DNA of 64,000 nucleotides, taken from Aliihoeflea sp. 2WW (GTDB taxonomy: Bacteria > Pseudomonadota > Alphaproteobacteria > Rhizobiales > Rhizobiaceae). Shown piece after piece: positions 46,378-64,000 of the stretch. Under the pieces are notes generated by a model. That model saw only the letters and a program-made list of their open reading frames with translations. It was not told the DNA's origin and did no database searches. Position 1 is the first letter of the stretch; every line of letters starts with the position of its first letter. The stretch spans positions 62,001 to 126,000 of the forward strand of contig NZ_AYOD01000015.1 in NCBI RefSeq assembly GCF_000497755.1, written 5' to 3'. The translations under genes and the position numbers were made by a program.

Positions 46378-47505
46378 TTACCCTGCAACCACCGCGCGGG
46401 ACATGACGAGATCGTCCCGATGCACCATCGCCGCGCGCGCTTCATAGCCGAGAACCGTTTCGATCTCGGCCGTTTTCAGTCCCGCGATCTTTACGGCATC
46501 CGTTGCGTCATAGGCAACAAGTCCGCGCGCGACCTCAGCGCCGTCTGGCCCCAGGATCGCGACCGTGTCGCCGCGCGCGAACTGGCCGGAGACGAGCGTG
46601 ACGCCCGCCGGCAGCAGCGACTTGCCCGCCTGCAGAGCCCGCACCGCGCCGGCATCGACGGATATGCGGCCCGCCGGCTCGAGCTGGCCCGCGATCCATG
46701 TCTTGTAGCCGCGCACCGGATGGGCGCTCGCCTCGAAATAGGTCGCCCGCTCGCCGGCATCGATCGCGGCAAGCGGGTTCTGCCGCGCGCCGGAGGTGAT
46801 GATCATGGCGGTTCCGGCGGCCGTCGCGATCTTGCCGGCATCGATCTTGGTGCGCATCCCGCCGCGCGAAAGTTCAGACGCGGCCGCGCCCGCCATCGCC
46901 TCGATCTGCGGCGTGATCGCCTCGACATGGGGGATGAAAATCGCGTCGGGATCGAGTTGCGGCGGCGCGGTGTAGAGGCCGTCGATGTCGGAGAGTAGCA
47001 CGAGCAGGTCGGCGCCCATCATGGTGGCGACGCGCGCGGCGAGCCGATCATTGTCGCCATAGCGGATTTCTGAGGTCGCGACCGTGTCGTTCTCGTTGAT
47101 GACGGGAACCGCGTTGAGTTTCAGAAGCGTCGAGATCGTCGCGCGGGCATTGAGATAGCGCCGCCGCTCCTCGGTATCGCCGAGCGTTACGAGGACCTGG
47201 CCGGATTTGAGCCCGACGCGGCCCAATTCCTCGGCCCAGGCACCCGCAAGCGCGATCTGGCCCGCAGCGGCCGCCGCCTGGCTTTCCTCCAACCGCAAGG
47301 CACGACGCCCGAGGCCGAGAATGTTGCGTCCAAGCGCGATGGCTCCCGACGAGACGACGAGCACTTCGCAGCCTTCCGCGGTCAGCCTGCCGATATCCTC
47401 CGCGAGCGAGGCCAGCCATTCCCGCTTCAACCCGCTCGCACGGTCGACGAGAAGAGCCGAGCCGATCTTGACCGTGATGCGGCGGTGAGACGATAGCGCC
47501 TTCAT
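46378..47505 (-). CDS. proB: Glutamate 5-kinase
   Basis: Started at the ATG at 47505 ([20 protein letters not shown]) the protein has 375 residues. An amino-acid kinase domain (GSALLVDR and [13 protein letters not shown]) is followed by a C-terminal PUA domain (about 275-375). It phosphorylates glutamate in the first, proline-inhibited step of proline synthesis. It lies between obgE (5 bp upstream) and proA, in the conserved obgE-proB-proA order. Confidence 0.96.
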
Positions 47506-47510
47506 CGCGC

Positions 47511-48587
<1,077 letters not shown>

Positions 48588-48637
48588 TCATCTAGCCCAT
48601 CATGCGCCCAAGTGCGAGGGGCGCGGGGGTGAAACCG

Positions 48638-49504
48638 ATGAAATGCGTGTCCTACAACATCCAGTATGGGATCGGCCTCGACAAGCGATACGACATCGCG
48701 CGCATCGTCGACGCGGTGCGCGGCGCCGACCTGATCGCGCTGCAGGAGGTCTCGCGCAACAACCCCAGCAATCAGGGCCGCGACATGCCGGCCGAAATCC
48801 GCGCTTTGCTGCCGGACTATTTCTCCGTCTTCGGCCCCTCCTTCGAGATCGACATGGGCTCGCATGTGAAGGACGGAAAAGCCGTCGATCTGCGCTTCCA
48901 GTTCGGCAACATGATCCTGTCCAAAACGCCGATCCTTGCCTCGCGCAACCTTCTCCTGCCGCGCCGGCGCTCCATCGCGAAGATGAACTTCCAGCGCAGC
49001 GCGCTGGAAGCCCTGGTCGACACACCGCTCGGCCCGATCCGGTTCTACTCCACCCATCTCGACCACCGCTCGCCCGACGAGCGCCTGATGCAGATCCGGC
49101 ACCTGATGGAACGCGTCCTGGCCTACCCGCATGAAGGCGGCGGCCTGACCGGCGTCGCGGAAATGGGCTTCCCCGAACCGCCCCGTCCCGAAAACGCGGT
49201 GCTGCTGGGTGATTTCAACATGCTCCCCGGCTCGCCCGAATATCTCGAAATGACCGGCAGCATCGACCACGAGTTTGGCCTGCCGCTGGTGGCGGATAAA
49301 TTCGTGGACGCGGCAGCGCACCTCAAATCGGAATCGCATAGCTGGGTCGATCCGGAACGACCGACAGACGCCGCGCGACACAAGCGCATCGACTACGCAT
49401 TCGTCACGGCCACCCTCGCCGCCCATCTTGCTTCATCCCATGTCGATATCGACGCACAAGGCTCGGACCACCTGCCGCTATGGTTGGACCTTGCAGCACA
49501 ATAG
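48638..49504 (+). CDS. Endonuclease/exonuclease/phosphatase family protein
   Basis: The ATG at 48638 follows a GGGGG stretch and gives 288 residues (MKCVSYNIQYGIGLDKRYD). It has the metal-dependent EEP fold motifs: YNIQYG, ALQEVSRNN, THLDHRSPDER, LLGDFNMLPGSPEY and the C-terminal GSDHLPLWLDL with the catalytic Asp-His. Members cut DNA, phosphoinositides or sphingomyelin; no signal peptide is seen, so this one is cytoplasmic. It interrupts the obgE...rplU order on the opposite strand, which suggests a local insertion. The specific substrate is unknown. Confidence 0.87.
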   Translation: MKCVSYNIQYGIGLDKRYDIARIVDAVRGADLIALQEVSRNNPSNQGRDMPAEIRALLPDYFSVFGPSFEIDMGSHVKDGKAVDLRFQFGNMILSKTPILASRNLLLPRRRSIAKMNFQRSALEALVDTPLGPIRFYSTHLDHRSPDERLMQIRHLMERVLAYPHEGGGLTGVAEMGFPEPPRPENAVLLGDFNMLPGSPEYLEMTGSIDHEFGLPLVADKFVDAAAHLKSESHSWVDPERPTDAARHKRIDYAFVTATLAAHLASSHVDIDAQGSDHLPLWLDLAAQ

Positions 49505-49519
49505 TTGACTCCGTCAACT
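49503..49519. promoter_or_regulatory. Palindromic operator before the MarR-GNAT gene
   Basis: AGTTGAC and GTCAACT form a perfect 7-bp inverted repeat around TCC, 33 bases before the start codon. Size and symmetry fit a MarR-family operator, so autoregulation by the gene product is a natural reading. Confidence 0.6.
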
Positions 49520-49552
49520 TAATGCGCAAATGCTCGTGGCGGAGGATTTGCC

Positions 49553-50488
49553 ATGGACGCTCGCCCCGCTGATACGGAACCGTCACCTGAAGAGGCATTG
49601 CGGGCATTTGGCCGCTTCTACACAAGGCGCATGGGCTTGCTCGAACATGGATTTCTGGCGAGCAATTTCACCCTGACGCAAGCACGCATCCTCTACGAAC
49701 TCGCCACGCGCGAAGGACTGGTGGCAAGCACGATCGCCCGCGAACTGGGGCTCGACGCAGGCTATCTGAGCCGCATCCTGACGCGGTTCAAGGCAGCCGG
49801 TTTGCTTGAGGCGACCCCATCGACCAAGGACGGTCGCCGCGCCATTCTCGAACTGACCGCTGCCGGTCGCGCCGCGTTTGCCCCGCTCGATCGCGCCTCG
49901 CAAATGCAGGCCGCCGAACTCGTCGATGGATTGGCATCCTCTGACCGCAGTCGTCTGGTGCGCGCCATGTCGGAGGTTCGCTCTCTCCTCGAGCCTGCAA
50001 TCGCAGAGCCGCCGATCCGTCTGCGTGATTTCGAAGTCGGCGATCTCGGCTGGATCGCGCATCGGCAGGGCCTGCTCTACCACCACGAATACGGCTTCGA
50101 TGCCACGTTCGAGGCGCTGGTGGCGGAAATCCTGGTCGCTTTCGCGCGACGCCCACGCGAACTTGGGGAGCGCGCCTGGATCGCCGATCGCGGCGGCGCA
50201 ACGGTCGGTTCGGTCTTCCTGATGCGCGACAGCGCAGACGTCGGACGCCTGCGGCTTCTCTACGTCGAACCCGCATTGCGTGGGCAGAAACTGGGACGAA
50301 GGCTCGTCGATGCCTGCATCGAAGGCGCGCGAGAGGCCGGCTATTCACGTCTAGTGCTCTGGACGAACGACATCCTGTCGTCGGCGCTGCACATCTATCA
50401 GGCAGCGGGTTTCACATGCGTCGCGCGTAAGCCGCACTCTTCCTTCGGACAGGAAATGGTCGGCGAAGACTGGGAACTTGCGCTCTAG
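49553..50488 (+). CDS. MarR-type regulator fused to a GNAT N-acetyltransferase
   Basis: The 311-residue protein joins an N-terminal winged helix-turn-helix of MarR type (about 20-140: ASTIARELGLDAGYLSRILTRF) with a C-terminal GNAT acetyltransferase domain (about 150-311). The acetyl-CoA loop is YVEPALRGQKLGRRLVDACIE. GGAGG precedes the ATG by 7 bases. The fusion suggests a ligand-responsive repressor that also modifies its ligand or another small molecule by acetylation. A palindromic operator candidate precedes it. Its end overlaps the convergent DUF3833 gene by 4 bp. Confidence 0.9.
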   Translation: MDARPADTEPSPEEALRAFGRFYTRRMGLLEHGFLASNFTLTQARILYELATREGLVASTIARELGLDAGYLSRILTRFKAAGLLEATPSTKDGRRAILELTAAGRAAFAPLDRASQMQAAELVDGLASSDRSRLVRAMSEVRSLLEPAIAEPPIRLRDFEVGDLGWIAHRQGLLYHHEYGFDATFEALVAEILVAFARRPRELGERAWIADRGGATVGSVFLMRDSADVGRLRLLYVEPALRGQKLGRRLVDACIEGAREAGYSRLVLWTNDILSSALHIYQAAGFTCVARKPHSSFGQEMVGEDWELAL

Positions 50489-50988
50489 TCGCGACGGAAA
50501 TCGACGCGTGTCCACGCTACGGGAAAGCCGTATTTCATCACCGTGGCCTTGTTCAAAACAGTGCCGTCCTCATTGAGGACCATTCGGTCGAAGAAGGTGA
50601 CCAGGTTTTCCTGCGTTTCAGGCGTCAGATAGACCTGATAGGAGAACGTCGCGACATTGCCGTCGCTCGTCACCAGCGTCTGCCCGACGACGTCCTCGCG
50701 TGTTCCGGTATAGGTCGTAGGCGAGGTCTTCGTGAACCGCCACGTCTTGGTGTCGCGCTCGCCATCGTCATAGACGAAGTCTTCACGCAAGGTCAGCGTG
50801 CGCCCGTCCCACGTCCCCGTCAGATCGACGGTGAATTTGCGGCTCGTGAAATTGATCGCCCGAAACGATCCTTCGGCGACGGTCTTGCCGGCGAAGTATT
50901 CTTCGAGCAGGAAATTCTTGGCCTCGGCATGCCCAAGCGAAAGGCAGGCGGCCAGCATGATCGATGCGAAAGCGGCGAGACGGCGCAT
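50485..50988 (-). CDS. DUF3833 domain-containing secreted protein
   Basis: The ATG at 50988 follows GGAG and gives 167 residues with a signal peptide (MRRLAAFASIMLAACLSLG) cut after AEA. The mature domain is a small beta-rich fold with the family segments YFAGKTVAEGSFRAINFTSRKFTVDLTG and YDDGERDTKTWRFTK. DUF3833 proteins are periplasmic or lipid-binding-like; the function is unknown. It lies 63 bp downstream of the GNAT acetyltransferase gene on the same strand. Confidence 0.85.
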   Translation of the reverse strand: MRRLAAFASIMLAACLSLGHAEAKNFLLEEYFAGKTVAEGSFRAINFTSRKFTVDLTGTWDGRTLTLREDFVYDDGERDTKTWRFTKTSPTTYTGTREDVVGQTLVTSDGNVATFSYQVYLTPETQENLVTFFDRMVLNEDGTVLNKATVMKYGFPVAWTRVDFRRD

Positions 50989-51051
50989 GACAGTGATCTC
51001 CAGTCCGGATTTCACCAGTCTACGCACACGTCTCGCCGCCGGATTTGCCGG

Positions 51052-51642
51052 TCAAGCCATGCCCCAGCTTCTAAGGCTCACCCACGTCTTGCGGTCGAGC
51101 CGGTAGCGTTCGACGGGAACGCGCCCGACGACGCGCGAATCCAGCATTCCCTGACCCGAATACTGGAATCCGCATTTGTGGATGACGCCGCGCGAGCCGG
51201 CGTTGATGACGCGGCACGAGACGTGCAGCACGTCGATCGGCGTAGCCCGGAAGGCGAGATCGACCAGCGCGTGCGCGGCTTCCGTCGCATAGCCGCGGCC
51301 CCAATAGGGCTCGCCGATCCAGTAGCCGAGCTCCAGCCCGCGCGAGGTCGCATTCAGCCCCGCGCAGCCGATGAACGCGCCATTGGCGCCGAGCGCGATG
51401 GCGTAGACGCAGCCCGCTTCGCGATCCTGACGCGTGGAGTCGAGAAATTGACGAGCCTCGGCCGAACCGTACGGATGCGGCATGCGGCCGAGCATTTCGG
51501 CGACGCGGCGGTTGTTGGCAAGTTCCGCCAACTCCTCGAGGTCGTCTTCATGCGGCGGGCGCAGGACCAGCCGTTCGGTGACGAGGACGGGGCAGTCGAT
51601 CCGCCAACATTCCTCTTCGAGGTCTTCCTTTTCCAGAACCAT
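51052..51642 (-). CDS. GNAT family N-acetyltransferase (RimJ/RimL-like)
   Basis: The 196-residue protein is a single GNAT domain of the RimJ/RimL type: LVTERLVLRPPHEDDLEELAEL at the start, the core ELGYWIGEPYWGRGYATEAAHALVDLAF with the acetyl-CoA loop, and the C-terminal VIHKCGFQYSGQG. Such enzymes acetylate protein N-termini or small amines; the substrate is unknown. It lies downstream of rpmA on the same strand, after a terminator, an arrangement common in rhizobia. Confidence 0.9.
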   Translation of the reverse strand: MVLEKEDLEEECWRIDCPVLVTERLVLRPPHEDDLEELAELANNRRVAEMLGRMPHPYGSAEARQFLDSTRQDREAGCVYAIALGANGAFIGCAGLNATSRGLELGYWIGEPYWGRGYATEAAHALVDLAFRATPIDVLHVSCRVINAGSRGVIHKCGFQYSGQGMLDSRVVGRVPVERYRLDRKTWVSLRSWGMA

Positions 51643-51670
51643 GGGTCTTCCTCCAGATCAAAACGGCAAA

Positions 51671-51696
51671 AGGGGAGATGGCGACCCATCTCCCCT
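51671..51696 (-). terminator. Terminator after rplU-rpmA
   Basis: AGGGGAGATGG and CCATCTCCCCT form a perfect 11-bp stem around a four-base loop; on the minus strand the stem runs into TTTT. It ends the ribosomal protein transcript before the acetyltransferase gene. Confidence 0.9.
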
Positions 51697-51767
51697 GTGC
51701 TTTGTTCTGGATTGTCGACCAGACACCGGACCCGAGATGGGGCGCCGGTGTTGTGGTGCGGAACCGA

Positions 51768-52037
51768 CTACTCCGCTGCTTCCTTGACCGCATCCACGGA
51801 TACGTAGGTTCGGCCGTTGGCTTTGCGCGCAAACGACACGACGCCTTCTTGCATCGCAAAAATCGTGTGGTCCTTGCCGAGGCCGACATTGGTGCCCGGA
51901 TGCCACTTGGTGCCGCGCTGGCGAATGATGATGTTGCCCGGAATGACGGCTTCGCCACCGAACTTCTTCACGCCAAGGCGCTTGGATTCGGAATCGCGAC
52001 CGTTGCGCGAGGAACCGCCAGCTTTCTTATGTGCCAT
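51768..52037 (-). CDS. rpmA: Large ribosomal subunit protein bL27
   Basis: The 89-residue protein starts [28 protein letters not shown], the universal L27 N-terminus that reaches into the peptidyl-transferase centre. There is no cleavable N-terminal extension of the Firmicutes type. It follows rplU by 25 bp in the standard operon. Confidence 0.97.
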
Positions 52038-52062
52038 GGGAGTTCTCCTTTATGCCTTGTTC

Positions 52063-52512
52063 TTATTCGCCGGCTTCGGCAGCTTCGGTCTTGGCGGCGG
52101 CCTTCTTCGGCGCTGCCTTCTTGGCGGCCTTCGGCGTCTCGTCGCCGGCCTCTGCCTTCGCAGCCTTCTTCTGGGAAGCCTTCTTCGAGGGCTTGGCGCC
52201 GTCGAGCAGGATCTCCGAGATGCGGACCGTCGTCAGAAGCTGACGGTGGCCGCGCTTGCGGCGCGAATTCTGGCGGCGGCGCTTCTTGAACGCGATGACC
52301 TTCTCGGCGCGGTTCTGGTCGATGATCTCGGCGGAGACCGAAGCGCCCGACACGAGCGGCGCACCGATCGTCACGTCGTCGCCATTGCCATGCGCGAGCA
52401 CGTGGCCGATCTCGACGATGTCGCCGATCTCGCCGGCGACGCGGCCGATTTCCAGAACCTGGTCGGCGGCGACGCGATACTGCTTGCCACCGGTCTTGAT
52501 GACTGCGAACAT
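52063..52512 (-). CDS. rplU: Large ribosomal subunit protein bL21, with a C-terminal extension
   Basis: The first 103 residues are a complete L21 ([23 protein letters not shown], then [26 protein letters not shown]). A further 45 residues made of lysine/alanine-rich repeats ([11 protein letters not shown]) form a basic disordered tail. Tails like this occur in some alphaproteobacterial L21 proteins and may touch rRNA. It is the first gene of the rplU-rpmA operon; the 306 bp upstream hold its promoter and otherwise nothing that I can name. Confidence 0.96.
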
Positions 52513-52818
52513 TTTTTGTCCTTTCTGTTCGGTTCCGGCTCTGGATGCGCGAGCACCCGGCCGGCTTCTTGTTCAGTCGGTTGAAACTGTCCCTGCGGGC
52601 GAATTTTCCAGCAAAGAACCGGCGCGGCGAGACGCCACACCGGATTTTCGAGGCTGCTCATACGTCAGCGCGGCCCTGAAGTCAACGCGAACCGGCCCGC
52701 TGCGGCGCTTTCGCGTCGCTCCGTCCGAGCGCCGCCATTTCGTCGACAAAACCCCTTGTGCCGCTCCATCACAATGGCTATGTGTGCGCCGCGTTCGAAA
52801 GAGCGAACCACGACCCGC

Positions 52819-52908
52819 GGAGAGGTGGCAGAGTGGTCGAATGCACCGCACTCGAAATGCGGCATGGGTGCAAGCCCATCGGGGGTTCGAATCCCTCCCT
52901 CTCCGCCA
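52819..52908 (+). tRNA. tRNA-Ser (anticodon CGA)
   Basis: A 90-base class II tRNA: the acceptor strands GGAGAGG and CCTCTCC pair, followed by the discriminator G and an encoded CCA. The long variable arm CATGGGTGCAAGCCCATC is typical of serine tRNA. The anticodon loop CTCGAAA gives CGA, decoding UCG. It marks the left edge of the catabolic cluster that follows. Confidence 0.97.
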
Positions 52909-53170
52909 TTTCGAATGTCAAGCAATTGTTTTTGCAGATGATTCCCCGCTGACGCGGCGGACCGACCTGGCGTTGTTTCAGTTCAGTTAGCCGGGAGGCG
53001 CAATCGAGCCGGTCATGCCGCTAGGTCGCCTTGGCCGGCCTCTTCGAGCTGCCAACATTGCAAATCAGATTCAGCCAATGTGCACCGGGTCGAACGATCG
53101 GCGGCAGGGATGTATCCCGGAAGGCCAGGAACATCAGGGCCATACACAATCCGCCCGCCGAAAATCCCGC
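52909..53170. other. Intergenic region between tRNA-Ser and the TRAP permease
   Basis: No gene, repeat of the tRNA 3' end or terminator was recognised here. It is the boundary between the housekeeping block and the accessory cluster. Confidence 0.6.
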
Positions 53171-55048
53171 CTATTGTCCCGGCACCAACTTCATCTGCGA
53201 CTGATGAAACGGTTTTGCGAGATGGATTCCGATGCACAACAGAATAATGGCGGCACCGAGCGCCAGCTCGTTGGGATAGAGAGCAAGAAGTGCTGATGGA
53301 GCGAAGATAGCTCCTGCGAGCATTCTGCTGCCGCGCAGACTGACGCCGGACGTCAGCATTGCCGTCGATATGACGAGCACCAAGCCTGAAAGAGCGGCCT
53401 CCGCGATGCCCAGCCCGCTGCCGGACCAGAGCATGCCGGGATAGGCCAGGAACATGAACGGCACGACATAGGTCACGGCGCCGAGCCGAACCGCGTTGAG
53501 GGCCACAGGCCACCACCCAACATTTGCGATGCTCGCCGCGACGAAGACCGCGATGCAAACGGGCGGCGTTATGACGGAGATCGTCGCGTAGTAGAACACG
53601 AACATGTGGGCGACCAGCGGCTCGACCTGAACGGCGATCAGCGCCGGCGCCATGACCGATGCGACGAGCACATAGGCGGCCGTCGTCGGGATGCCCATGC
53701 CCAGGATCAGACAGGAGCCGGCGACGATAAGGCCGATCAACACGATGTTCTGGCCGCCGATGGCAACGACCAGCGAAGACAGCGTCACGCCGATGCCCGT
53801 GAGGTTCAGCAGCGATACGAGGATCTGAGCGCCAGCCAGCATCACGCCGATGATGACGATGCCGGCACCACCCTCGACGAGCGCGTCGAACAAGGTTCGC
53901 GAGGTCGCGGCAACGTTTCGCCGTCGCCACAGATCGCCGATGACGAACGGGATCAGCATGCACGCAATGCCGATCGCCGCGGAATAGGCGACCGAACGGC
54001 CGGAGACCAACATGAAGATCAGGCCGCCGAGACCGCCGAGTACCGGGATCAACCGCAGGGGATCGAGCGCCTGGCGGGCGGAGGGAATTTCCTCGCGCGG
54101 CACCAGGCCGACATTGCTGCGCAGCGCGACCAGGTGAATGGTCAAAAGCACGGCGATGTAGAACATCGCGGCCGGAATGACGGCGGCGAGCGCGATGCGC
54201 AGATACTCGACGCCGATCATTTCAGCCATGATGAACGCAGCAGCACCGAGGATCGGCGGCGTCACCTGCCCGCCGGTCGACGCCACCGCCTCGACCGCGG
54301 CAGCGAACTGCGGCGGATAGTTCAGCCGCTTCATCAGCGGGATCGTCAAGGTTCCGGTCGTCGCGACATTGGCGACGGCACTGCCGTTGACCGTGCCGAA
54401 CGAGGCTGAAGCGATCGTCGCCATCTTGGCCGCTCCGCCGATCGAACGACCCGAGACGAGGAGCGCGATGTCCATGAACGTCTTGCCGCCGCCAGTATGC
54501 AGGAGGACGGCTCCGAACAACACGAAGGCGGCGATCAAGGTCGAGGCAAGGCCGGTCAGCGATCCCCACACGCCGATATCGGAGAGGTAGATCGTCTCGG
54601 CAATGAAGTAGACGTCGAAGCCGCGGTGGCCGAGTCGTCCCGGAATGAGGTGGCCGAGGAAGACGTAGGAGAGGCCGACGATCACGAGGATCGGAAAGGC
54701 GAGGCCGACCGTGCGGCGGGCCAATTCGAGCAGCACGACGACGAGACCCAGTGTCAGGCCAAGCTCGAGGGGAGACGCCATCGGCAAGGTCGTCATGATG
54801 CGATTGGCGTTGAAGGTGACGTAGACCGCGGCGGCGATGCCGATTCCCGCAAGCACGACGTCGAGCGCGATCGACCATCCCCGCGTCCGCCCGCCGGGCC
54901 GTAGCGGGTAGGTCAGGAAACCGAGAAGAAGAAGCAGCGCGACCATGACGGACCGCTGGACGAGGGATTCGAACTGACCCGCAAAGGCCGTCCACAACAC
55001 GAAAGCACCGATCGTCGCGGCGACCAGTCGGCGGGAGTTTTCAAGCAT
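53171..55048 (-). CDS. TRAP transporter, fused small and large permease subunits
   Basis: The 625-residue membrane protein combines the 4-helix (DctQ-like) and 12-helix (DctM-like) parts, as in TAXI-type TRAP systems. Typical large-subunit segments are FGTVNGSAVANVATTGTLTIPLMKR, GGQVTPPILGAAAFIMAEMIG and GMGIPTTAAYVLVASVMAPAL. With the TAXI binding protein encoded just upstream, it would import an organic acid or amide using the sodium gradient. It is the last gene of a minus-strand operon starting at the AtuA gene. The C-terminal extra helices (about 540-620) belong to this group. Confidence 0.93.
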   Translation of the reverse strand: MLENSRRLVAATIGAFVLWTAFAGQFESLVQRSVMVALLLLLGFLTYPLRPGGRTRGWSIALDVVLAGIGIAAAVYVTFNANRIMTTLPMASPLELGLTLGLVVVLLELARRTVGLAFPILVIVGLSYVFLGHLIPGRLGHRGFDVYFIAETIYLSDIGVWGSLTGLASTLIAAFVLFGAVLLHTGGGKTFMDIALLVSGRSIGGAAKMATIASASFGTVNGSAVANVATTGTLTIPLMKRLNYPPQFAAAVEAVASTGGQVTPPILGAAAFIMAEMIGVEYLRIALAAVIPAAMFYIAVLLTIHLVALRSNVGLVPREEIPSARQALDPLRLIPVLGGLGGLIFMLVSGRSVAYSAAIGIACMLIPFVIGDLWRRRNVAATSRTLFDALVEGGAGIVIIGVMLAGAQILVSLLNLTGIGVTLSSLVVAIGGQNIVLIGLIVAGSCLILGMGIPTTAAYVLVASVMAPALIAVQVEPLVAHMFVFYYATISVITPPVCIAVFVAASIANVGWWPVALNAVRLGAVTYVVPFMFLAYPGMLWSGSGLGIAEAALSGLVLVISTAMLTSGVSLRGSRMLAGAIFAPSALLALYPNELALGAAIILLCIGIHLAKPFHQSQMKLVPGQ

Positions 55049-55116
55049 TGTGGGGCTCGCGGCTGGAAAGACGGGGATCGGCCAAATCCGATCCCCCTTG
55101 CGGCGCAGGGCCGTGC

Positions 55117-56082
55117 TCAGGGACGCAGGCGCTCGGGAATCTCGACGCCGACCTCCTCAAAATAGCGGATCGCGCCGGGATGGAGAGGCGAGGTCGCCAG
55201 TGCCATCGTCATGTCGGGGAGTTGCGAGCCTTTCAGATTCGCGAAGGCGGCAGACTGGACGGTTTCGTCTTCCACCGCTGCCTTCGTAATGGCGTAGGCC
55301 ATGTCGTCGCTCATTTCGGGATGGGCGACCGTGGCGGTGCCGAACGCCCAGGTGCGATAGGCGGGATAGCCATCACCGGCGGCGTTTTCGCCGATCTCGA
55401 TCACCGCGAGATTCGGAAAGGCATCGGTGACGGATTGGGCCTGCTCGTCGTCGAGGCTGATCAGGGACACGGGGGTGAGCGTGGCGATGTCCAGGCTCGA
55501 CGCATCCAGCCTCTCGCCGGCGCCGCTTTTCACATAGCCGACCGCACGGTCGTCCTTGATGGAATCGACGACGTCGCCGGTCGAGCCGCGAACCCAGTCC
55601 GGCTCGACGCCGAGATGGGCGAAAACCGCCTCCGTGGTCTTCTCCGTCGCAGATCCGGTGATGCCGGGATTGATGCGCTGGCCTGCAAGATCCGCAATCG
55701 TCTCGAGCCCGGCATCCTGACGCACGACGACGTTCTGGGGTGCGGACGAATAGACCCACAAGGTCAGCATCTTGTAGGGCTGACCCTCGAAGTCCCCCTG
55801 TCCGGCCCAGGCGTCATATGCGACGTTCGTCGTGACCAGGCCCATGTCGATCTGGTTGCGCTGCAGCCGGCGCATATTGTCCATGGTCGCGCCCGTTTCG
55901 ACGACCGTCGCCGAAACGCCCTCGACACCGTCATTGATGAGCTGCGAGACGGCGACATAATAGCCGTAATGGCTCGACGACGACGAAGACGACCCTATGA
56001 GGATACGCTCCTGCGCATGCGTCGCGCTGCCGGCCAAGAATGCGATCGCCGTGGCGGCCAAGATCTTTCCCGAGTTGTTCAT
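55117..56082 (-). CDS. TAXI-family TRAP transporter solute-binding protein
   Basis: The ATG at 56082 follows GGGAGGAG and gives 321 residues with a signal peptide (MNNSGKILAATAIAFLAGSATHA). It shows the TAXI pattern: SSSSSSHYGYYVAVSQLIND, the segment VETGATMDNMRRLQRNQIDMGLVTTNVAYDAW and GRINPGI-like loops (AGQRINPGITGSATEKT). It captures the substrate in the periplasm and passes it to the fused permease. TAXI ligands include glutamate and related compounds; the ligand here is not readable. It is flanked by the permease (68 bp) and the ferredoxin-fold gene. Confidence 0.92.
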   Translation of the reverse strand: MNNSGKILAATAIAFLAGSATHAQERILIGSSSSSSSHYGYYVAVSQLINDGVEGVSATVVETGATMDNMRRLQRNQIDMGLVTTNVAYDAWAGQGDFEGQPYKMLTLWVYSSAPQNVVVRQDAGLETIADLAGQRINPGITGSATEKTTEAVFAHLGVEPDWVRGSTGDVVDSIKDDRAVGYVKSGAGERLDASSLDIATLTPVSLISLDDEQAQSVTDAFPNLAVIEIGENAAGDGYPAYRTWAFGTATVAHPEMSDDMAYAITKAAVEDETVQSAAFANLKGSQLPDMTMALATSPLHPGAIRYFEEVGVEIPERLRP

Positions 56083-56114
56083 TTTAGTTCTCCTCCCTTG
56101 GATTTTTTTTGGTG

Positions 56115-56483
56115 TCACCCGGTCGCATTTTCCGAATTGCGATTACCGACAAGTGCGGCGGGTACGGTCACGTCCATCGACAGCAGATGGAACGCGGTGG
56201 TCTTGCCGTGCGTATCGAGGTTGAGCGCCGAGTTGACGCCCCCCTCCAGTGCGTCATCGATGACGAAATTCAGCGCCTGGATGTTTTCGAGGACGTAGCG
56301 CTTCACCTTGGACGCGCTGCGATGGGCGAACATGGCGAGCACGCGCGCCTCGGTCACCTCCCGAACGAGGATCGGCCATGCTTCGGGACGATAGGCGATG
56401 ACACTGATGTTCAGTCGATTGCCCTTGTCGCCCGATCGGCCATGCGCAATGTCGTGCAGCGGCACGGTCAACATCTCGCTCAT
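56115..56483 (-). CDS. AtuA-associated ferredoxin-fold protein
   Basis: The 122-residue protein has the segment LHDIAHGRSGDKGNRLNISVIAYRPEAWPIL and later HRSASKVKRYVLENIQALNFVIDDALEGGVN. In many bacteria this domain is the C-terminal part of AtuA-type (DUF1446) proteins; here it is a separate gene. The AtuA stop and this start overlap as ATGA (56480-56483), so the two are made together and probably form a complex. GGGAGGGCGAGG precedes the ATG. Confidence 0.85.
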   Translation of the reverse strand: MSEMLTVPLHDIAHGRSGDKGNRLNISVIAYRPEAWPILVREVTEARVLAMFAHRSASKVKRYVLENIQALNFVIDDALEGGVNSALNLDTHGKTTAFHLLSMDVTVPAALVGNRNSENATG

Positions 56484-57844
56484 GCCTCGCCCTCCCAGAA
56501 CGTATGGCGCTCCTCGACCATCGATCGGGGCACGAGATATGAAGCCGTGTTGATGCGCGACTGAAGGCGTGTCCGGATGCCGCCGCCGCCGGCCGGGCCG
56601 GTACAGTAGAGTGCACCGACTTCGCGCAGGGCCAGCTCGGCCTCGGCCTTGTCCGAAGCGCTGACGGCAAGGCGCATCCGGATGTCGGGGCCTTCAGGCA
56701 GAACCTGACCCGGAGGACTGGCGTCGTCGCCTCCGAAGACGCTCAGCGCGCCGATGAAGTCGTAGCGCCGGCGCACGCGCGACGTCTGCGACCTGAGGCG
56801 CGTTTCCACCACATCCGCCGCCAGACGGGCACGCGCGAGCGCGTTCGGTCCCGCATAGGATATCTCGGCCTCGCCGAGCCAGTCTCCCGAAACGCCGATC
56901 GTGGCCTTGAGGCGATCGGGCGCCGGCCTGCCGCGCGCCCCACTGACGGCGACGCGATCCTTGCCGACTTGAGCGATCGCCACCTGCGTCATGTCGAGTA
57001 TGACGTCCGGCGTCAGATAGGCCGCCGGATCATGAATTTCGTAAAGGATCTGCTCCTTGACGGTGCGCAGATCAACCACACCGCCGGTGCCATGGGGCTT
57101 CGTGATGGTGAACGAGCCGTCCGCCTCGACCTCGGCGATCGGAAACCCGACATCGGCAAGATCGGCGACGTCCTTGAAGCCGGGGTCGGCAAAATAGCCG
57201 CCGGTTACCTGGCTGCCGCATTCGAGGAGATGGCCGGCCAGCGTTCCCGCCGCCAGCCTGTCCCAGTCGGTCCAGTCCCATCCGAAATGCGCGACCAGCG
57301 GACCGAGCACCAGCGAAGGATCGGCCACTCTCCCCGTGACGACCACTTGCGCACCGTTTTGAATAGCTTCTGCGATGTGCCGCGCGCCGATATAGGCATT
57401 GGCGGAAATGATGTCGGACGGACCGGCGCGAAGTTCGGTATCACCCTCCCATCGCTCAAGGCCCGACAGGTCCAGCCCCTCGCGAATATCGTCGCCTTCG
57501 ACGACGGCGATCTGGATGCCGTCGAGGCCCAGCTCGCCTGCCAGCCGGGCGATGCGATCGGCCGCCGCACGTGGATTGGCAACGCCGAAATTGCCCACCA
57601 CGACGATGCGGGAACGGATGCAGTCGGCGAGGACCGGCGTTAGAAGCTCAGACAGTAGCGGATCGTAGCCATGGCGCGGATTCGATCGGCGAGCCAGGTG
57701 ACCCAGCGCCAGCGTCCGCTCGCCGATCGTCTCGAAGATCAATGCGCCGCCGCCGCCATCGGCGATCATCTGCCGCACGACAGGGATGGCCGCATCGACG
57801 CGATCGCCTGAAAAACCCGAACCGCTTCCGATCCTATACGTCAA
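56480..57844 (-). CDS. AtuA-like acyclic terpene utilization family protein (DUF1446)
   Basis: The best start is a TTG at 57844: GGAGG lies 7 bases upstream and the product begins LTYRIGSGSGFSGDRVDAAI in family register; it has 454 residues. The core contains FETIGERTLALGHLARR, SANAYIGARHIAEAIQNGAQVVVTGRVADPSLVLGPL and HPHG-like TKPHGTGGVVDLRTVKEQ. AtuA is named from citronellol breakdown in Pseudomonas, but DUF1446 proteins occur with many acid- and amide-degrading clusters, so the reaction is unknown. It heads the minus-strand operon with the ferredoxin-fold, TAXI and TRAP genes. Confidence 0.87.
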   Translation of the reverse strand: MTYRIGSGSGFSGDRVDAAIPVVRQMIADGGGGALIFETIGERTLALGHLARRSNPRHGYDPLLSELLTPVLADCIRSRIVVVGNFGVANPRAAADRIARLAGELGLDGIQIAVVEGDDIREGLDLSGLERWEGDTELRAGPSDIISANAYIGARHIAEAIQNGAQVVVTGRVADPSLVLGPLVAHFGWDWTDWDRLAAGTLAGHLLECGSQVTGGYFADPGFKDVADLADVGFPIAEVEADGSFTITKPHGTGGVVDLRTVKEQILYEIHDPAAYLTPDVILDMTQVAIAQVGKDRVAVSGARGRPAPDRLKATIGVSGDWLGEAEISYAGPNALARARLAADVVETRLRSQTSRVRRRYDFIGALSVFGGDDASPPGQVLPEGPDIRMRLAVSASDKAEAELALREVGALYCTGPAGGGGIRTRLQSRINTASYLVPRSMVEERHTFWEGEA

Positions 57845-57875
57845 TGAAAATCCTCCCGTCGTCTTTATCGGAATG

Positions 57876-57887
57876 ATTATCGATAAT
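57876..57887. promoter_or_regulatory. Palindrome in the AtuA / GntR intergenic region
   Basis: ATTATCGATAAT is a perfect 12-bp palindrome between the divergent AtuA-type and GntR genes. Its half-sites TTATCG and CGATAA recur near the hydantoinase promoter (62314-62351), which supports a role as the operator of the adjacent GntR regulator. Confidence 0.6.
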
Positions 57888-57948
57888 GTCAACGCTTGGA
57901 TTGTCGAGCCGCTGCGAGGTAAGGTGGAGCCGGTACACAGGGGCTCAA

Positions 57949-58638
57949 ATGACTGACTACGCATTATCCGAACACAAGCGCGATCCCGGCCGATGGGAAG
58001 CTCTTTTCAAGGAACTGCAGCGCGAGATCATCTTCGGCACCCTGCGGCCCCGAGAACGGCTCGTTGAAGACGAAATCATCGCGCGCCTCGACGCGACGCG
58101 GCATGCCGTGCGCAGGGCCTTTGCGGAACTGGAACGCGTCGGTCTCGTCATACGCATGCCGAATCGCGGCGTTCAGGTGCGCGACTACACGCTCGTCGAG
58201 GTCGAGGAGCTTTACGAAATCCGCGAAATTCTCGAGGCACGAGCAGCAAGGCGCATGTCTCTGCCGGCCCCCAAAAGGCTCCTCGAAGAACTTGGCTCGA
58301 TCGCCGAGGCGCATGCGCGCGCTTCAAGGGAAGAGCGGTATCTCGACATCTTCCTGCTCAACAACGAGTTTCACGAGAAGCTCTACGGGCATTGCGGTAA
58401 CGGGCTTCTGGCCGAAGCCATCAAGTCATACACATTCGCCAGCCACCCGATCAGGAGCAGAGGCTTTCCCGACGCCGAACTTCGGCGTCTGGCGGTCGAG
58501 GAGCACAGGCAGATTCTCGACGCGCTCGCGGGCGGCGACGCCGATGCTCTCGCAAAGCTTTGCGTGGCGCACATTCAGCGCCCGAAGGACTATTATCTGC
58601 GCGCGAACAGGATGCTCGCACAGAGTGCCACGCCGTAG
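57949..58638 (+). CDS. GntR family transcriptional regulator (FCD type)
   Basis: The ATG at 57949 gives 229 residues (MTDYALSEHKRDPGRW). The N-terminal winged helix is LQREIIFGTLRPRERLVEDEI...GNRGVQVRDYT-like (MPNRGVQVRDYT), and the C-terminal all-helical FCD ligand-binding domain includes NNEFHEKLYGHCGNG with the metal-binding histidine. FCD regulators usually bind a carboxylate made by their pathway. It is divergent from the AtuA operon and convergent with the hydantoinase gene, so it sits in the middle of the cluster it is likely to control. Confidence 0.92.
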   Translation: MTDYALSEHKRDPGRWEALFKELQREIIFGTLRPRERLVEDEIIARLDATRHAVRRAFAELERVGLVIRMPNRGVQVRDYTLVEVEELYEIREILEARAARRMSLPAPKRLLEELGSIAEAHARASREERYLDIFLLNNEFHEKLYGHCGNGLLAEAIKSYTFASHPIRSRGFPDAELRRLAVEEHRQILDALAGGDADALAKLCVAHIQRPKDYYLRANRMLAQSATP

Positions 58639-58652
58639 CCAGCGAGCACGTA

Positions 58653-61600
58653 TCAGCCCTCGGACGTTCCATATCCGCCGCCCGTCGGGGTGGTGAGGAT
58701 GAAGGCGTCTCCTGGCTGGAGAACCGTTTGATCGCAGCCGCTCAGCGTTTCAACGGCGCCGGATGCGCGGCGGACGTGGTTGGTTCCCACTTGGCCTGAC
58801 TGCCCTCCTTCGAGACCGAAAGGCTGGACTTTTCGGTGGCCTGAAAGGATGGCGAACTCCAGCGTCTCGCGGGCTCGGATGGTGCGCCTTGTGCCGTCGC
58901 CCGCATTCCACTTGCCACGACCGCCCGATCCCTGCCGGATATGGAAATCCTCGAGGACGACCGGAAACCGCGTCTCCAGGATTTCGGGATCGGTGAGGCG
59001 GGAATTGGTCATGTGGGTGTGAATGGCGTCCGCTCCGTGGAAACCCGGCCCGGCAGGCGCGCCCGAGCAGATGGTCTCGTAGTACTGGTATTCCTCATTG
59101 CCGAAGGTCAGGTTGTTCATCGTCCCCTGCGCGGCCGCCATCGCGCCGGTAGCGCCGAACAGGCAGTTCGTCACCGCCTGACTGACCTCGACATTGCCGG
59201 CGACGACGGCGGCCGGATAGCTTGGCGACAGCATCGAATTTTCAGGCACGACGATGCGGATCGGTCGCAGGCAGCCGGCATTCATCGGGATGTCGCCCTG
59301 CACCAGCAGGCGGAAGACGTAAAGGACAGCCGCCCGCGTGACGGGCGCCGGCGCGTTGAAATTATCGGGACGCTGGGCTGACGTGCCGGTGAAATCAACC
59401 GTCGCTTCCCGCTTCGCACGGTCGACCGTCACGCGCACCTTGATCTGGCATCCCTGATCCATCGGATAGGTGAATTCGCCATCGGGAAGCCGGTCGAGCA
59501 CGCGCCGCACGCTTTCCTCAGCATTGTCCTGGACATGGCCCATATAGGCCTCGACGACGTCGCGGCCGAAGAGGTCGATCATGCGGGAAAGTTCCGACAC
59601 GCCCTTTTCATTGGCCGCGATCTGGGCCTTCAGGTCGTTGACGTTCTGGACGAGATTGCGCACCGGATAGCGTGCGCCGGTCAACAGTTGCGACAGCTCG
59701 TCCTCGCAGAACCGACCTTTGTCGACGAGCTTGAAATTGTCGATATAGACGCCTTCCTCCTCGATCGTAGTGGCGAGCGGCGACATCGAGCCAGGCGCGA
59801 GGCCGCCGATATCGGCATGATGCCCGCGACTTGCGACCCAGAAACGGATGGTGCGCGCGTCGGCGTCGAAGACGGGCGTGCAGACCGTCAGATCCGGCAG
59901 GTGCGTGCCGCCATTATAGGGCGCGTTGATGAGGAAGACGTCACCCGGATTGACGACCGGGTTCTCGCGGATCGCGGTGGCGATGGATGCGTCCATCGAG
60001 CCCAGATGGACAGGCATGTGCGGCGCGTTGGCCACCAGATTGCCCGCGGCGTCGAAGACGGCGCAGGAGAAGTCGAGCCGCTCCTTGATGTTGACCGAAT
60101 AGGCCGTGTTCTGCAACGTCACGCCCATCTGCTCGGCGATCGACATGAAGAGATTGTTGAAAATCTCCAGCATGACCGGATCGGCCTGCGACCCGATCGC
60201 CAGCCGCGCGGGCAAAGGCTTTATGCGCTCGAGGACGATGTGGTCGCGCGCGGTCAGTCGGCCCTGCCAGCCCTCCTCGATCACGATCGTCTGGTTGGCC
60301 TCGATGATGATTGCCGGGCCGGCCACGAACTGGCCGGGGATCATGCCGGAGCGCAGAACCACGCCCGCATCGTGATCCGCACCTTGCGAATGGAAGCGTG
60401 CCCGTCCGGCCGGAACGGCTGCAGATGGCGCTTCAACCGCACCCGCAAGCTCGGCCTCGACCGCGCCGCCGCCGACAGCTTCCAATTCGACCGCCTCGAT
60501 CACGAGCGCCTTGTTTTCCGCGATGAAGCCGAACCGGCGACGGTGGACGTCCTCGAAGCCGGCGCGCAGACGCGCGGCGTCGTCGATCTGCGGATAGCTC
60601 GCCTCGACGGCGAGGAGTGTGTCGGTTCCGGCATAGCGGATATGGGCGCGAAGGTGGCGCGTGATCGACGTCTCGCCGATGCCCTGCGCGGAAAGTTCGG
60701 CGCTGCATTCTGCATCGAGTTCGCTGCCAAGGCCGGCGAGTGCGGCCGGCGCTTCGTCGTCGAGCGCAACGCCGAGCGCTTTTTGCCGCGTCGCACGAAT
60801 GTCGGCCAGACCCATGCCATAGGCCGAAAGCAGGCCGGACATCGGGTGCAGGAGAACGCTTTTCATCCCGAGCGCATCGGCCACCAGACAGGCATGCTGA
60901 CCACCCGCGCCGCCGAAACAGTTCAGCGCATAGCGCGTCACGTCATAGCCGCGCTGGACCGAAATCTTCTTGATTGCCTCGACCATGTTGGCGACCGCGA
61001 TGCGGATGAAGCCGTCGGCGACGTCCTCGGCACTGCGACCATCGCCGATCTGCCGCGCCATCTCCTCGAACTTTTCGCGCACGATCGCGACGTCGAGCGG
61101 CTGGTTTTGCGCGGGCCCGAAGATCGCCGGAAAGCGCTCCGGCAGGAGTTTGCCGAGCATGACGTTGGCATCCGTGACGGTCAGCGGGCCGCCATTGCGA
61201 TAGCAGGCCGGGCCGGGATTGGCGCCGGCCGAATCCGGCCCGACGCGAAACCGCCCGGCGTCATAATGCAGGATCGACCCGCCGCCGGCTGCGACGGTGT
61301 GGATGAGCATCATCGGCGCGCGGACGCGAACGCCTGCGACCTCGGTTTCGAAGGCGCGTTCGAACGTGCCGTCGAAATGCGCGACGTCGGTCGACGTGCC
61401 GCCCATGTCGAAGCCGATGACCTTGTCGAACCCGGCGGCATCGCCGGTGCGGGCTAGCCCGACCACACCGCCCGCCGGACCGGACAGGATCGCATCCTTG
61501 CCCTGGAAAAGGTCGGCAGCGGTGAGGCCGCCCGACGACATCATGAACATCACCCGCGCACCGGTCCGCGCGACGTCGAGTTCGTCGGAGACCTGCGCGA

Positions 61601-62264
61601 CATAGCGGCGAAGAACGGGTGAGAGATAGGCGTCGACGACGGTCGTGTCGCCGCGCCCGACCAGCTTGATGAGCGGCGAAACCTCGTGGCTGACGGAGAC
61701 CTGGCCAAAGCCGATCTCGCGCGCGATCCGCGCCGCCTCGATCTCATGGGCGGGATATTTGTAGGCGTGCATGAACACGATCGCGATGGCGTCGTGGCCT
61801 TCCTGTCGCAACGCCAAGAGTTCGAAGCGAAGCGCGTCCGCGTCGAGCGACGTCTCGACCGTGCCATCGGAAAGCACGCGCTCGCCAACCTCGACGACCC
61901 TGTCATATAGCGCTTCAGGCTTGACGATCTCGGTGGCGAAGATGTGCTTGCGCTCCTGATAGCCGATCTTCAGCGCATCGCGGAAACCGCGCGTCGTCAC
62001 CAGCGCGAGCCGTTCGCCCTTGCGCTCCAGAAGCGCGTTGGTGGCGACGGTGGTGCCCATGCGCACTTCGCCGATCAGACCGGCGGGGACGGGTTCGCCC
62101 GGTTGCAGGCCGAGCAGCTTGCGAATGCCGTGGACGGCCGCGTCGCGGTAGGCCGACGGATTTTCCGACAGGACCTTGATCGGGTGGAAGATGCCGCCCG
62201 GATCGCGCCCGATCACGTCGGTGAAGGTGCCGCCCCGGTCAATCCAGAAATCCCACTGTGCCAT
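58653..62264 (-). CDS. Hydantoinase / 5-oxoprolinase family protein (HyuA-HyuB fusion)
   Basis: The ATG at 62264 ([24 protein letters not shown]) gives 1203 residues. The N-terminal half is the HyuA ATP-binding part (GGTFTDVIG, later [16 protein letters not shown]), and the C-terminal half is the HyuB part (starting near [23 protein letters not shown]). Full-length fusions of this size are 5-oxoprolinases or N-methylhydantoinases, which open a cyclic amide using ATP. The exact ring cannot be chosen from sequence. The end faces the GntR gene 14 bp away; the start is divergent from the AllA gene, with TTATCG/CGATAA sites in between. A 640-residue antisense frame over it is a shadow. Confidence 0.93.
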
Positions 62265-62313
62265 CGCTTCGTCATCCCGGTTTGAAGATGACGGCAATCT
62301 TGTCGATCCCGTT

Positions 62314-62351
62314 CGATAAGTCGAATTATCGTTTTGGATCAAAATCGATAA
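62314..62351. promoter_or_regulatory. TTATCG/CGATAA half-sites between the hydantoinase and AllA genes
   Basis: Three half-sites lie here: CGATAA at 62314-62319, TTATCG at 62326-62331 and CGATAA at 62346-62351. The first two face each other around 6 bases; the last two form a wider inverted pair. They match the palindrome next to the GntR gene and so are candidate GntR sites for the divergent hydantoinase and AllA promoters. Confidence 0.55.
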
Positions 62352-62460
62352 ATAAATCGACATATGATAGACGCGCTCGATCGCTCGCGATCAGCAACGA
62401 CAATTCGACATTCGGCGTTGAATTGCGCATTGCAGGGGTGATGATCCGAAGGAGACGAGG

Positions 62461-62979
62461 ATGGCCCATTCAGTTGCAATCGAGCCGCTGACGGCTGAGG
62501 CCATTGCGCCTTATGGCTGGATGCTGGGCAAGCCCTGCGACCCGGCGGATGCGGCGAGCTTCGTCAGCCCGGCCAGCGATTTCTGGAGCGAGCATGTCTT
62601 CGACACCGCGGGCGGGCAGACCGAGATACTGTGGGTCGTCTATCGCAGCCGCGATGTCGCGATCGCCCGGCTGGAGGCCCATTTCCTGACGCAACAGGCC
62701 ATCATCCCTCTGAACGGCGCGATCATCCAGATCGTTGGCCTCGGACTTCCGGACGGGTCGCTGGACGAGGCGAGCGTCAGGGCGTTCCAGATTCCGCCTG
62801 GACAGGGCGTTTGCATGCGGCCAGGCTGTTGGCATGCCACGCGTATCGAGGACGACGAAGTCACCTGCGCGATGCTGACGCGCCGGTCCACGACGCTCGA
62901 TCTCGCGCGCCATCTCAACACCGGCGGCGTGCTTGACGAAAGCGCGTTTCAGCCCGTCTCGCTCGTCCTCGCGCGATAA
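62461..62979 (+). CDS. Ureidoglycolate lyase family protein (AllA-like)
   Basis: The 172-residue protein follows AAGGAGACGAGG and starts MAHSVAIEPLTAEAIAPYGWMLGKP, as in the AllA/ureidoglycolate hydrolase cupin family. The middle IPLNGAIIQIVGLGLPDG and the segment PPGQGVCMRPGCWHATRI supply the cupin histidine. AllA splits ureidoglycolate to glyoxylate and urea at the end of purine breakdown. Here it is linked to the hydantoinase and not to allantoin genes, so it may act on an analogous carbamoyl-hydroxy acid. It is divergent from the hydantoinase and precedes the Old Yellow Enzyme gene by 119 bp. Confidence 0.87.
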   Translation: MAHSVAIEPLTAEAIAPYGWMLGKPCDPADAASFVSPASDFWSEHVFDTAGGQTEILWVVYRSRDVAIARLEAHFLTQQAIIPLNGAIIQIVGLGLPDGSLDEASVRAFQIPPGQGVCMRPGCWHATRIEDDEVTCAMLTRRSTTLDLARHLNTGGVLDESAFQPVSLVLAR

Positions 62980-63098
62980 GCGCGATTGATCGGCGGCGAT
63001 CAAAACTGACCATTCGACTCGGCCCATCCGCCATGCACCAATCTGCGGCAGATGGATGGGCCCCAGCCCCCATGGGATCGAGCGGACAGGAGCAGCGC

Positions 63099-64000
63099 AT
63101 GACCAAACCGGCCAGCCAGAAGTCGAGCACGGATTCGCGGGTTTCGGGCGAAGATGGCCGCCGCATTTTGCGCCGCGATCCGCGGCCCCATCTGTTCCGG
63201 CCGATCAGTTTCCGGTCCGTCGAGACGCGCAACCGCATCATGCTGTCGCCGATGTGCCAGTATTCCGCCGTCGACGGGATGGCGAATGACTGGCACCTCG
63301 TTCATCTGGGTGCGCGCGCCGTTGGCGGTGCGGGCATCGTCTGCACGGAAGCGGTGCACGTTGCGCCGCATGGCCGGATCACGCAGCACGATCTTGGCCT
63401 GTGGAACGACGACCAGCGCGATGCGCTGGCGCGCATCGCGCGGTTCGTCTCCGCGCAAGGGGCCGTGCCTGCCATCCAGCTTGGCCATGCCGGACGCAAG
63501 GCGTCGGTCGGCAGGCCGTGGGAGGGAAGCGGGCCGGTGGCGCCGGAAGATGGCGGATGGGAAACCGTATCGTGTTCCGACCTGCCCTATGCCGCCGCAT
63601 GGCCCGCGCCGCGGACGCTCGACGAGGACGGCATCCGCACGGAAATCGAGGCACTGGCGCAGGCGACCCGCCGCGCCCGCGAAGCCGGTTTCCGGATACT
63701 CGAAATCCATGCGGCCCACGGCTACCTGATCCACCAGTTCTATTCGCCGGTCAGCAATTCTCGCGACGACGCCTATGGCGGCAGCTTCGAAAACCGCATC
63801 CGCTTCCTGCTGCAATCGCTCGACGCCGTGCGGCGCGAATGGCCCGACGACCTGCCACTGTTCCTGCGCCTGTCGGTGACGGACTGGGTGGAGGACGGCT
63901 GGAATGTCGACGACACGATCCGGCTCGTTCGCATCTTGAAGGAACGCGGCGATGTCGATCTCGTCGATTGCTCGTCAGGCGGCAATGATCCGCGCCAGTC
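63099..64000 (+). CDS. NADH:flavin oxidoreductase, Old Yellow Enzyme family (3' end cut off)
   Basis: The frame starts at the ATG at 63099 behind AGGAGC (an in-frame ATG at 63072 is the alternative) and runs open to the window end, giving 300 residues of an enzyme of about 370-410. It is a YqjM-type flavoenzyme: MLSPMCQYSAVDGMANDWHLVHLGARAVGGAG carries the cysteine that tunes the FMN, IQLGHAGRKAS follows, and IHAAHGYLIHQFYSPVSNSR holds the substrate-binding histidines. It reduces activated C=C bonds or related xenobiotics. Being on the same strand as the AllA gene, it is probably cotranscribed. Confidence 0.92.
   Translation, partial: MTKPASQKSSTDSRVSGEDGRRILRRDPRPHLFRPISFRSVETRNRIMLSPMCQYSAVDGMANDWHLVHLGARAVGGAGIVCTEAVHVAPHGRITQHDLGLWNDDQRDALARIARFVSAQGAVPAIQLGHAGRKASVGRPWEGSGPVAPEDGGWETVSCSDLPYAAAWPAPRTLDEDGIRTEIEALAQATRRAREAGFRILEIHAAHGYLIHQFYSPVSNSRDDAYGGSFENRIRFLLQSLDAVRREWPDDLPLFLRLSVTDWVEDGWNVDDTIRLVRILKERGDVDLVDCSSGGNDPRQ

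Follow-up and report, generated by a model that had tools for sequence, protein, structure and literature searches.

Eight genes behind a tRNA-Ser gene of Aliihoeflea sp. 2WW raise the question whether neighbours for import, ring opening and lyase reactions belong to one pathway. The window analysed here is a stretch of 64,000 nucleotides (contig C15, positions 62001-126000) of the 4.14-Mb draft genome. The tRNA-Ser(CGA) gene is located at 52819-52908 and was the sole match in an Rfam scan of positions 45000-64000. A preliminary description had listed behind it a fused TRAP permease, a TAXI solute-binding protein, an AtuA (DUF1446) protein with a separate ferredoxin-fold partner, a GntR/FCD regulator, a fused hydantoinase (HyuAB), an AllA-like protein and an Old Yellow Enzyme (OYE), and had joined them in a single route for a cyclic amide. 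All eight proteins are indeed encoded by open frames at the places named, and the families, including the 1203-residue hydantoinase, were confirmed by library profiles. The common route did not hold. It is well supported that two independent catabolic units lie side by side, not one conserved pathway. Unit A (53171-58638) consists of the fused TRAP, TAXI, AtuA partner, AtuA and GntR genes. Unit B begins with the divergent pair of HyuAB and AllA-like genes and extends 8 kb beyond the right edge of the window. With moderate confidence we explain unit A by a lyase of the citramalate type and unit B by the use of 5-oxoproline with DctPQM and HyuAB.

The separation into two units was derived from the co-occurrence of the genes. 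A search with AtuA yielded 67 bacterial loci, each taken with flanks of up to 10 kb; in 57 of these, the flank that corresponds to HyuAB and the AllA-like gene is at least 5.2 kb long. The ferredoxin-fold partner was present in 64 of the 67 loci. A GntR regulator of at least 50% identity was detected in 14 loci and, as judged by eye, adjoins AtuA in 13 of these. TAXI was found in eight loci and TAXI together with the fused TRAP permease in seven. None of the 67 loci contained a fused hydantoinase of at least 45% identity, an AllA-like gene, a hydro-lyase gene, a DUF2848 gene or an OYE of at least 45% identity. Weaker matches were OYEs of 28-30% in three loci and amidases of about 30% in two. 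Furthermore, AtuA, partner, TAXI and TRAP are present without hydantoinase on plasmids of Palleronia and Skermanella, the two records examined among the 515 of this plasmid check for unit A and HyuAB. Thus, TRAP, TAXI, partner, AtuA and GntR recur without HyuAB in AtuA loci, the first four also on two plasmids, and are regarded as a unit of their own. The preliminary description had itself made joint conservation the test of its pathway; since the gene set is not conserved together, the single pathway fails on this point. In two Chloroflexi loci (L075, L077; 10.0-21 kb) split hydantoinase genes with an identity of about 30% lie behind AtuA and its partner.

Within unit A, four genes are encoded on the minus strand: the fused TRAP permease (53171-55048, 625 residues; TIGR02123 with 491 bits, cut-off 321), the TAXI protein (55117-56082, about 321 residues; TIGR02122 with 154 bits, cut-off 84), the ferredoxin-fold partner (56115-56483, 122 residues; PF23544 with 120 bits) and AtuA (56480-57844, about 454 residues; PF07287 with 460 bits). 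The AtuA start is probably the TTG at 57844, to judge from the sequence, giving 454 residues; a longer AtuA model had low confidence over its first 19 residues. The regulator gene (57949-58638, plus strand; GntR with 38 bits, FCD with 81 bits) is divergent from AtuA. It meets HyuAB on the minus strand tail to tail with 14 bases between them, which places the boundary of the units at 58638/58653.

For the AtuA pair, AlphaFold2 models were built with 33 (AtuA) and 31 (partner) aligned homologues, and a mean predicted local distance difference test score (pLDDT) of 87.6 and 88.9, respectively, was obtained. The AtuA model matched chain A of 9evf, an entry titled as a complex of citramalate lyase, ADP and pyruvate, with a Foldseek E of 9.5e-22 and a Z of 32.2 (406 residues, 3.5 Å, 17% identity). 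The next structural match reached Z 11.9 and covered only residues 340-451. For the partner model, searched alone, the best match was chain B of 9evf (E 3.3e-4, Z 10.6, 98 residues, 2.8 Å, 14% identity); the second-best had a Z of 7.0. A citramalate-lyase-type function is suggested because neighbouring genes match both chains of one enzyme, and this is the main argument for unit A. Judging from these models, unit A would most likely import and cleave a citramalate-like hydroxy acid. The GntR protein would control the operon and TAXI-TRAP would import a small hydroxy carboxylic acid. AtuA and its partner would form a two-subunit, nucleotide-dependent lyase whose products would be an oxo acid and an acid resembling acetate. 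As in 9evf, two separate chains are present and both folds are matched; the difference, which weighs against the assignment, is an identity of only 14-17%, so that citramalate lyase is assigned on the fold, and a shared fold shows no function. Towards the sequences of solved structures AtuA gave only three weak matches (E 0.4-0.7), all to one unrelated protein.

In the accessible part of PMC4847356, the AtuA protein of acyclic terpene utilisation is credited with the release of acetate in a lyase step. The accessible part of PMC4682846 describes mesaconate clusters of enterobacteria in which the methylaspartate ammonia-lyase gene has a DUF1446 gene downstream of it. In some relatives of unit A, genes of the 3-oxoacid CoA-transferase, thiolase, carnitine or hydroxyacyl-CoA dehydrogenase and histidinol dehydrogenase families lie near AtuA. 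The acetate-splitting AtuA, the DUF1446 gene of the mesaconate clusters and these neighbouring genes fit the reading as a citramalate lyase. The terpene AtuA shares the Pfam family AtuA and, as far as PMC4847356 describes it, has 615 residues; unlike it, unit A has two proteins of 454 and 122 residues and no atu carboxylase or hydratase genes beside them. An enzyme class is proposed here for the pair of AtuA (DUF1446) and ferredoxin-fold protein, which still carries the annotation of acyclic terpene utilisation. No on-topic paper on citramalate lyase from 2023 on was found in the literature searched. Importers of other types also adjoin the pair, namely a peptide-type ABC transporter in Devosia and relatives and a tricarboxylate-type binding protein in three loci (L070-L072); both importers were named by reading the sequences, not by a library match. 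The histidinol-dehydrogenase-family genes near AtuA are located at L043:8115-9392 and L069:11808-13133.

The TAXI protein was compared by eye with VcGluP in an alignment with 8s4j, which we identify as VcGluP by the agreement of its residues with the numbered positions. Tyr45 is kept, and Gln93 is replaced by Thr, Glu125 by Ala and Ser75 by Thr. Gln93 and Glu125 of VcGluP are ligands of the amino group according to the accessible text of PMC11574862. From these exchanges, the TAXI protein is unlikely to be a receptor for glutamate or pyroglutamate. A role as glutamate or 5-oxoproline importer for HyuAB is disfavoured by the binding residues as well as by the linkage. The proposed import of a cyclic amide by TAXI-TRAP is not supported; unit B carries a DctPQM TRAP transporter of its own outside the window.

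The first gene of unit B is the fused HyuA-HyuB (58653-62264, minus strand; 1203 residues from the ATG at 62264). According to Pfam, the single chain holds Hydant_A_N, Hydantoinase_A, Hydant_A_C and Hydantoinase_B. A divergent intergenic region of 196 bases (62265-62460, from the coordinates) separates it from the AllA-like gene (62461-62979, plus strand, 172 residues). The OYE gene (63072-64000, plus strand; PF00724, Oxidored_FMN) is cut by the window edge; it is complete in L009 (1072-2256) and would end at 64256. Eight genes follow on the same strand, coding for a hydro-lyase, DctP, DctQ, DctM, a DUF2848 protein, an amidase, a membrane-like protein and a LysR regulator. Genes past the window edge were chosen with a codon-usage score. 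The last but one of them has no family match and appears to encode a membrane protein. Gaps along the run from the AllA-like gene onward range from -4 to 148 bases.

The linkage of these genes was counted in 385 alphaproteobacterial genomes, our own included. Of these, 175 encode HyuAB (E 1e-200 or better), 78 the hydro-lyase (E 1e-30) and 47 DUF2848 (E 1e-20); an AllA-like protein of at least 57% identity occurs in three, our own among them. For HyuAB, the linkage count covers the 146 listed genomes of the 175, with a distance of 12 kb and with our own genome counted. Both HyuAB and the hydro-lyase are present in 60 genomes, and in 10 of these the two genes lie at most 12 kb apart; random placement of single copies in 4 Mb would give about 0.4 of 60 (our own arithmetic). 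Hydro-lyase and DUF2848 are linked within this distance in 15 of 37 genomes with both. Thus, the hydro-lyase, linked to HyuAB as well as to DUF2848, is the hub of unit B. It passes the cut-offs of D-glutamate cyclase families (PF07286 with 220 bits, cut-off 25; NCBIfam PRK05463 with 400 bits, cut-off 324). Elsewhere, in L140:8939-13019, a hydro-lyase gene adjoins DUF2848 without a transporter; some 2 kb downstream lies a gene of the Asp/Glu racemase family, which fits D-glutamate chemistry.

Related operons point to the substrate. Four of 648 plasmid records for unit B were examined. The core order LysR, hydro-lyase, DctPQM, DUF2848, amidase is found on plasmids of two Paracoccus species and of Thioclava. 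On a Sulfitobacter plasmid HyuAB sits between DctM and DUF2848 and the amidase is missing, and two genomes (G297 and G182) have the order LysR, hydro-lyase, DctPQM, HyuAB. In genome G303, PxpB, PxpC and PxpA directly follow DUF2848; the same genes adjoin the Thioclava operon. PxpA was detected in 37 of the 78 hydro-lyase genomes and at most 12 kb from the hydro-lyase in five of them (G151, G198, G268, G303 and G365). None of these five belongs to the HyuAB-linked set, as positions compared by hand indicated. The main argument for unit B is that two unrelated enzymes, HyuAB and PxpABC, occupy the same setting, so the substrate should be 5-oxoproline or a close relative. With the linkage to the hydro-lyase and the replacement by PxpABC in related operons, HyuAB is most likely the ATP-dependent 5-oxoprolinase of a TRAP-fed 5-oxoproline operon. 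The DctPQM transporter would import 5-oxoproline (pyroglutamate) or a close relative, the hydro-lyase of the D-glutamate cyclase family would handle the D form, and glutamate would result from ATP-dependent ring opening by HyuAB. Accessory steps may fall to DUF2848, amidase, AllA-like protein and OYE. A substrate class is thereby proposed for a recurrent TRAP operon with DUF2848. Apart from this operon, our genome has a PxpA gene (G000:C29:15754-16467) and may hold more than one kind of 5-oxoprolinase.

The sequence of HyuAB was compared with that of caprolactamase. The ATP-site motifs DxGGTFTD, DMGGT and GANPGP are present in the alignment with CapA, and the four metal ligands of CapB, Asp41, His99, Asp102 and His124, are kept (alignment by eye; motifs, ligands and residue numbers from the accessible part of PMC8453981). 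According to the same source, oxoprolinases lack Lys40 of CapA, a residue without an assignable position in the alignment. HyuAB resembles CapAB (6yra) in these ATP motifs and the metal site. It differs in being fused, in the absence of the vicinal cysteines 410-411 of CapB and in the unmet NCBIfam caprolactamase cut-offs (360 and 156 bits vs 1000 and 1000), and a function as caprolactamase is disfavoured. The N terminus presumably resembles that of eukaryotic 5-oxoprolinase. A second fused hydantoinase gene of the genome (G000:C50:29587-33256; L010:9518-13259), 63-66% identical, appears as two overlapping frames, either by a frameshift or by an assembly error. In L011:8019-14412 a split hydantoinase pair adjoins an isocitrate lyase family-like gene and two aconitase/isomerase-like subunits, which were named by eye.

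Known systems show a comparable organisation. In the accessible text of PMC13274462, the pxpTABC cluster of Corynebacterium glutamicum is described for the use of 5-oxoproline, with the secondary carrier PxpT, PxpABC and a GntR regulator. An importer, an ATP-dependent 5-oxoprolinase (predicted here) and a regulator are likewise combined in unit B. In contrast to the cluster as described there, unit B has DctPQM, probably HyuAB and LysR in these places, and in addition hydro-lyase, DUF2848, amidase, AllA-like protein and OYE. For Bordetella pertussis, the same text cites the TRAP-type 5-oxoproline receptors DctP6 and DctP7 near a 5-oxoprolinase of eukaryotic type. Bordetella pertussis, as far as this account goes, and the present genome share a DctP-type TRAP transporter with a fused-type oxoprolinase, probable here, in its vicinity; the similarity of the unit B DctP to DctP6 and DctP7 is only moderate. 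Most parts of the locus are explained by known kinds of genes, and the enzyme class of the AtuA pair and the DUF2848 operon stand out. Neither the AtuA-TAXI unit nor the operon of unit B was found described, and the name DUF2848 was not found, in the literature searched, most subscription journals being outside its reach.

The AllA-like protein was identified by its Pfam family. As the preliminary description had proposed, it belongs to Ureidogly_lyase (PF04115, 46 bits, cut-off 23); the NCBIfam cut-off of 160 bits for ureidoglycolate lyase was not reached (best 44 bits). Compared with 36 more distant proteins of the AllA family, E72, H74, Q79, P83, W124 and H125 are kept, and common residues at positions 41, 65, 73, 75, 78, 143 and 145 are changed. 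It resembles the ureidoglycolate lyases AllA (2bdr, 1xsq, 1yqc) as a distant sequence match (E 1e-5 to 6e-4) and differs from them by several changed family residues and the unmet equivalog cut-offs. A true ureidoglycolate lyase is disfavoured by these changes and cut-offs. Among 15 plasmid matches, 11 are close (55-58%), all from Paraburkholderia and Caballeronia, and four are distant. In the six close relatives whose neighbours were examined, LysR adjoins the gene in all six, DUF2848 in five and the amidase in four. The protein, as its residues and neighbours suggest, belongs with unit B and probably does not act on ureidoglycolate. In two genomes the AllA-like gene adjoins an acyl-CoA synthetase gene (family match made for L123 only).

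OYE is assigned to unit B by its position in the gene run only. Its nearest solved relatives are ene-reductases. Of the cyclic-amide set proposed before, HyuAB and the AllA-like protein stay in a probable cyclic-amide unit and OYE stays by place alone; the remaining members (TRAP, TAXI, AtuA, partner and GntR) fall into the other unit.

Several observations weigh against 5-oxoproline as the substrate of unit B and against its composition. DctP matched 2pfz at rank 5 (E 7e-17) and 2pfy at rank 9 (E 1e-15) of 58 matches, which does not decide for 5-oxoproline; we take 2pfz to be DctP7 and 2pfy to be DctP6 of Bordetella pertussis. HyuAB and DUF2848 occur together in one of 35 genomes, only the window's own. 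HyuAB is common, as counted above, and lies away from the hydro-lyase in 50 of the 60 genomes with both. The two records examined among 979 HyuAB plasmid records, from Phyllobacterium and Sinorhizobium, carry 80%-identical copies that stand alone. The nearest solved fused chain to HyuAB is N-methylhydantoinase (419 bits). OYE lacks conserved linkage, with one OYE match of 34% in 36 loci.

Part of these points would be accounted for if HyuAB were a stand-alone 5-oxoprolinase or hydantoinase that became a chance neighbour of an unrelated TRAP/hydro-lyase/DUF2848/amidase operon. This is quite unlikely. Most HyuAB genes have no such neighbours (16 of 20 loci examined, taken from the top of the listing with rows skipped and not at random), the plasmid copies mentioned above are solitary, and HyuAB is transcribed away from the operon; against this stand the linkage in 10 of 60 genomes with about 0.4 expected, the HyuAB gene inside the Sulfitobacter operon and the HyuAB genes downstream of DctM in G297 and G182. 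For DUF2848, 14 loci from 47 genomes were examined. Another cyclic amide as substrate of unit B, such as a hydantoin, an imide or a hydroxylated or unsaturated lactam, is unlikely as well. DctPQM would import it, OYE would reduce and HyuAB would open the ring, and amidase, DUF2848 and AllA-like protein would finish the open-chain product. OYE, AllA-like protein and amidase in the same gene run, unexplained by 5-oxoproline alone, would find a place in this scheme, which also agrees with N-methylhydantoinase as nearest solved fused relative and with core operons that have no HyuAB. It conflicts with the substitution of HyuAB by PxpABC, a 5-oxoprolinase, in related operons and with the hydro-lyase as a member of the D-glutamate cyclase family.

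The assumption of one pathway for all eight genes, in which TAXI-TRAP imports a cyclic amide and OYE, HyuAB, AllA and AtuA degrade it in turn, is highly improbable. It has in its favour the adjacency in this one genome. The genes are not co-conserved across the 67 AtuA loci, unit B has its own importer, AtuA and its partner resemble a carbon-carbon lyase, and GntR recurs with AtuA and without HyuAB. The two-unit explanation with a citramalate-type lyase and 5-oxoproline use is therefore preferred. A wider joint reading is put forward tentatively and is doubtful as a whole. The AtuA pairs could be widespread two-subunit, nucleotide-dependent hydroxy-acid lyases with interchangeable importers (TAXI-TRAP, tricarboxylate-type, peptide-type ABC), and unit B could be an undescribed pathway for modified 5-oxoproline. 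OYE, AllA-like protein, DUF2848 and amidase might then make lactams that are unsaturated, hydroxylated, N-substituted or in the D form accessible to HyuAB.

The position behind the tRNA gene bears on how the units became neighbours. In three of the four other genomes of the genus (L190, L192 and L193), a match to the window with 92-94% identity ends 2-4 bases after tRNA-Ser and does not continue; the fourth has its tRNA match on a different contig. Since homology to the genus mates stops just past tRNA-Ser, units A and B have probably become neighbours within a strain-variable stretch. The locus illustrates that genes may adjoin each other in a single genome, at a variable site next to a tRNA gene, without forming one pathway. 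The G+C content (0.61-0.68 from 44000 to 64000) shows no step at the unit boundary and no sign of recent import. The final 14 bases of tRNA-Ser do not recur in 82 kb of the contig, and no island borders were found there. As judged by eye, the genes after tRNA-Ser differ among the three genus mates, which makes the site at 52819-52912 a variable one. An AtuA of 39-40% identity is present elsewhere in two of the four genus mates; the other two have none. In genome G487, a large-recombinase-like gene occupies the site behind tRNA-Ser.

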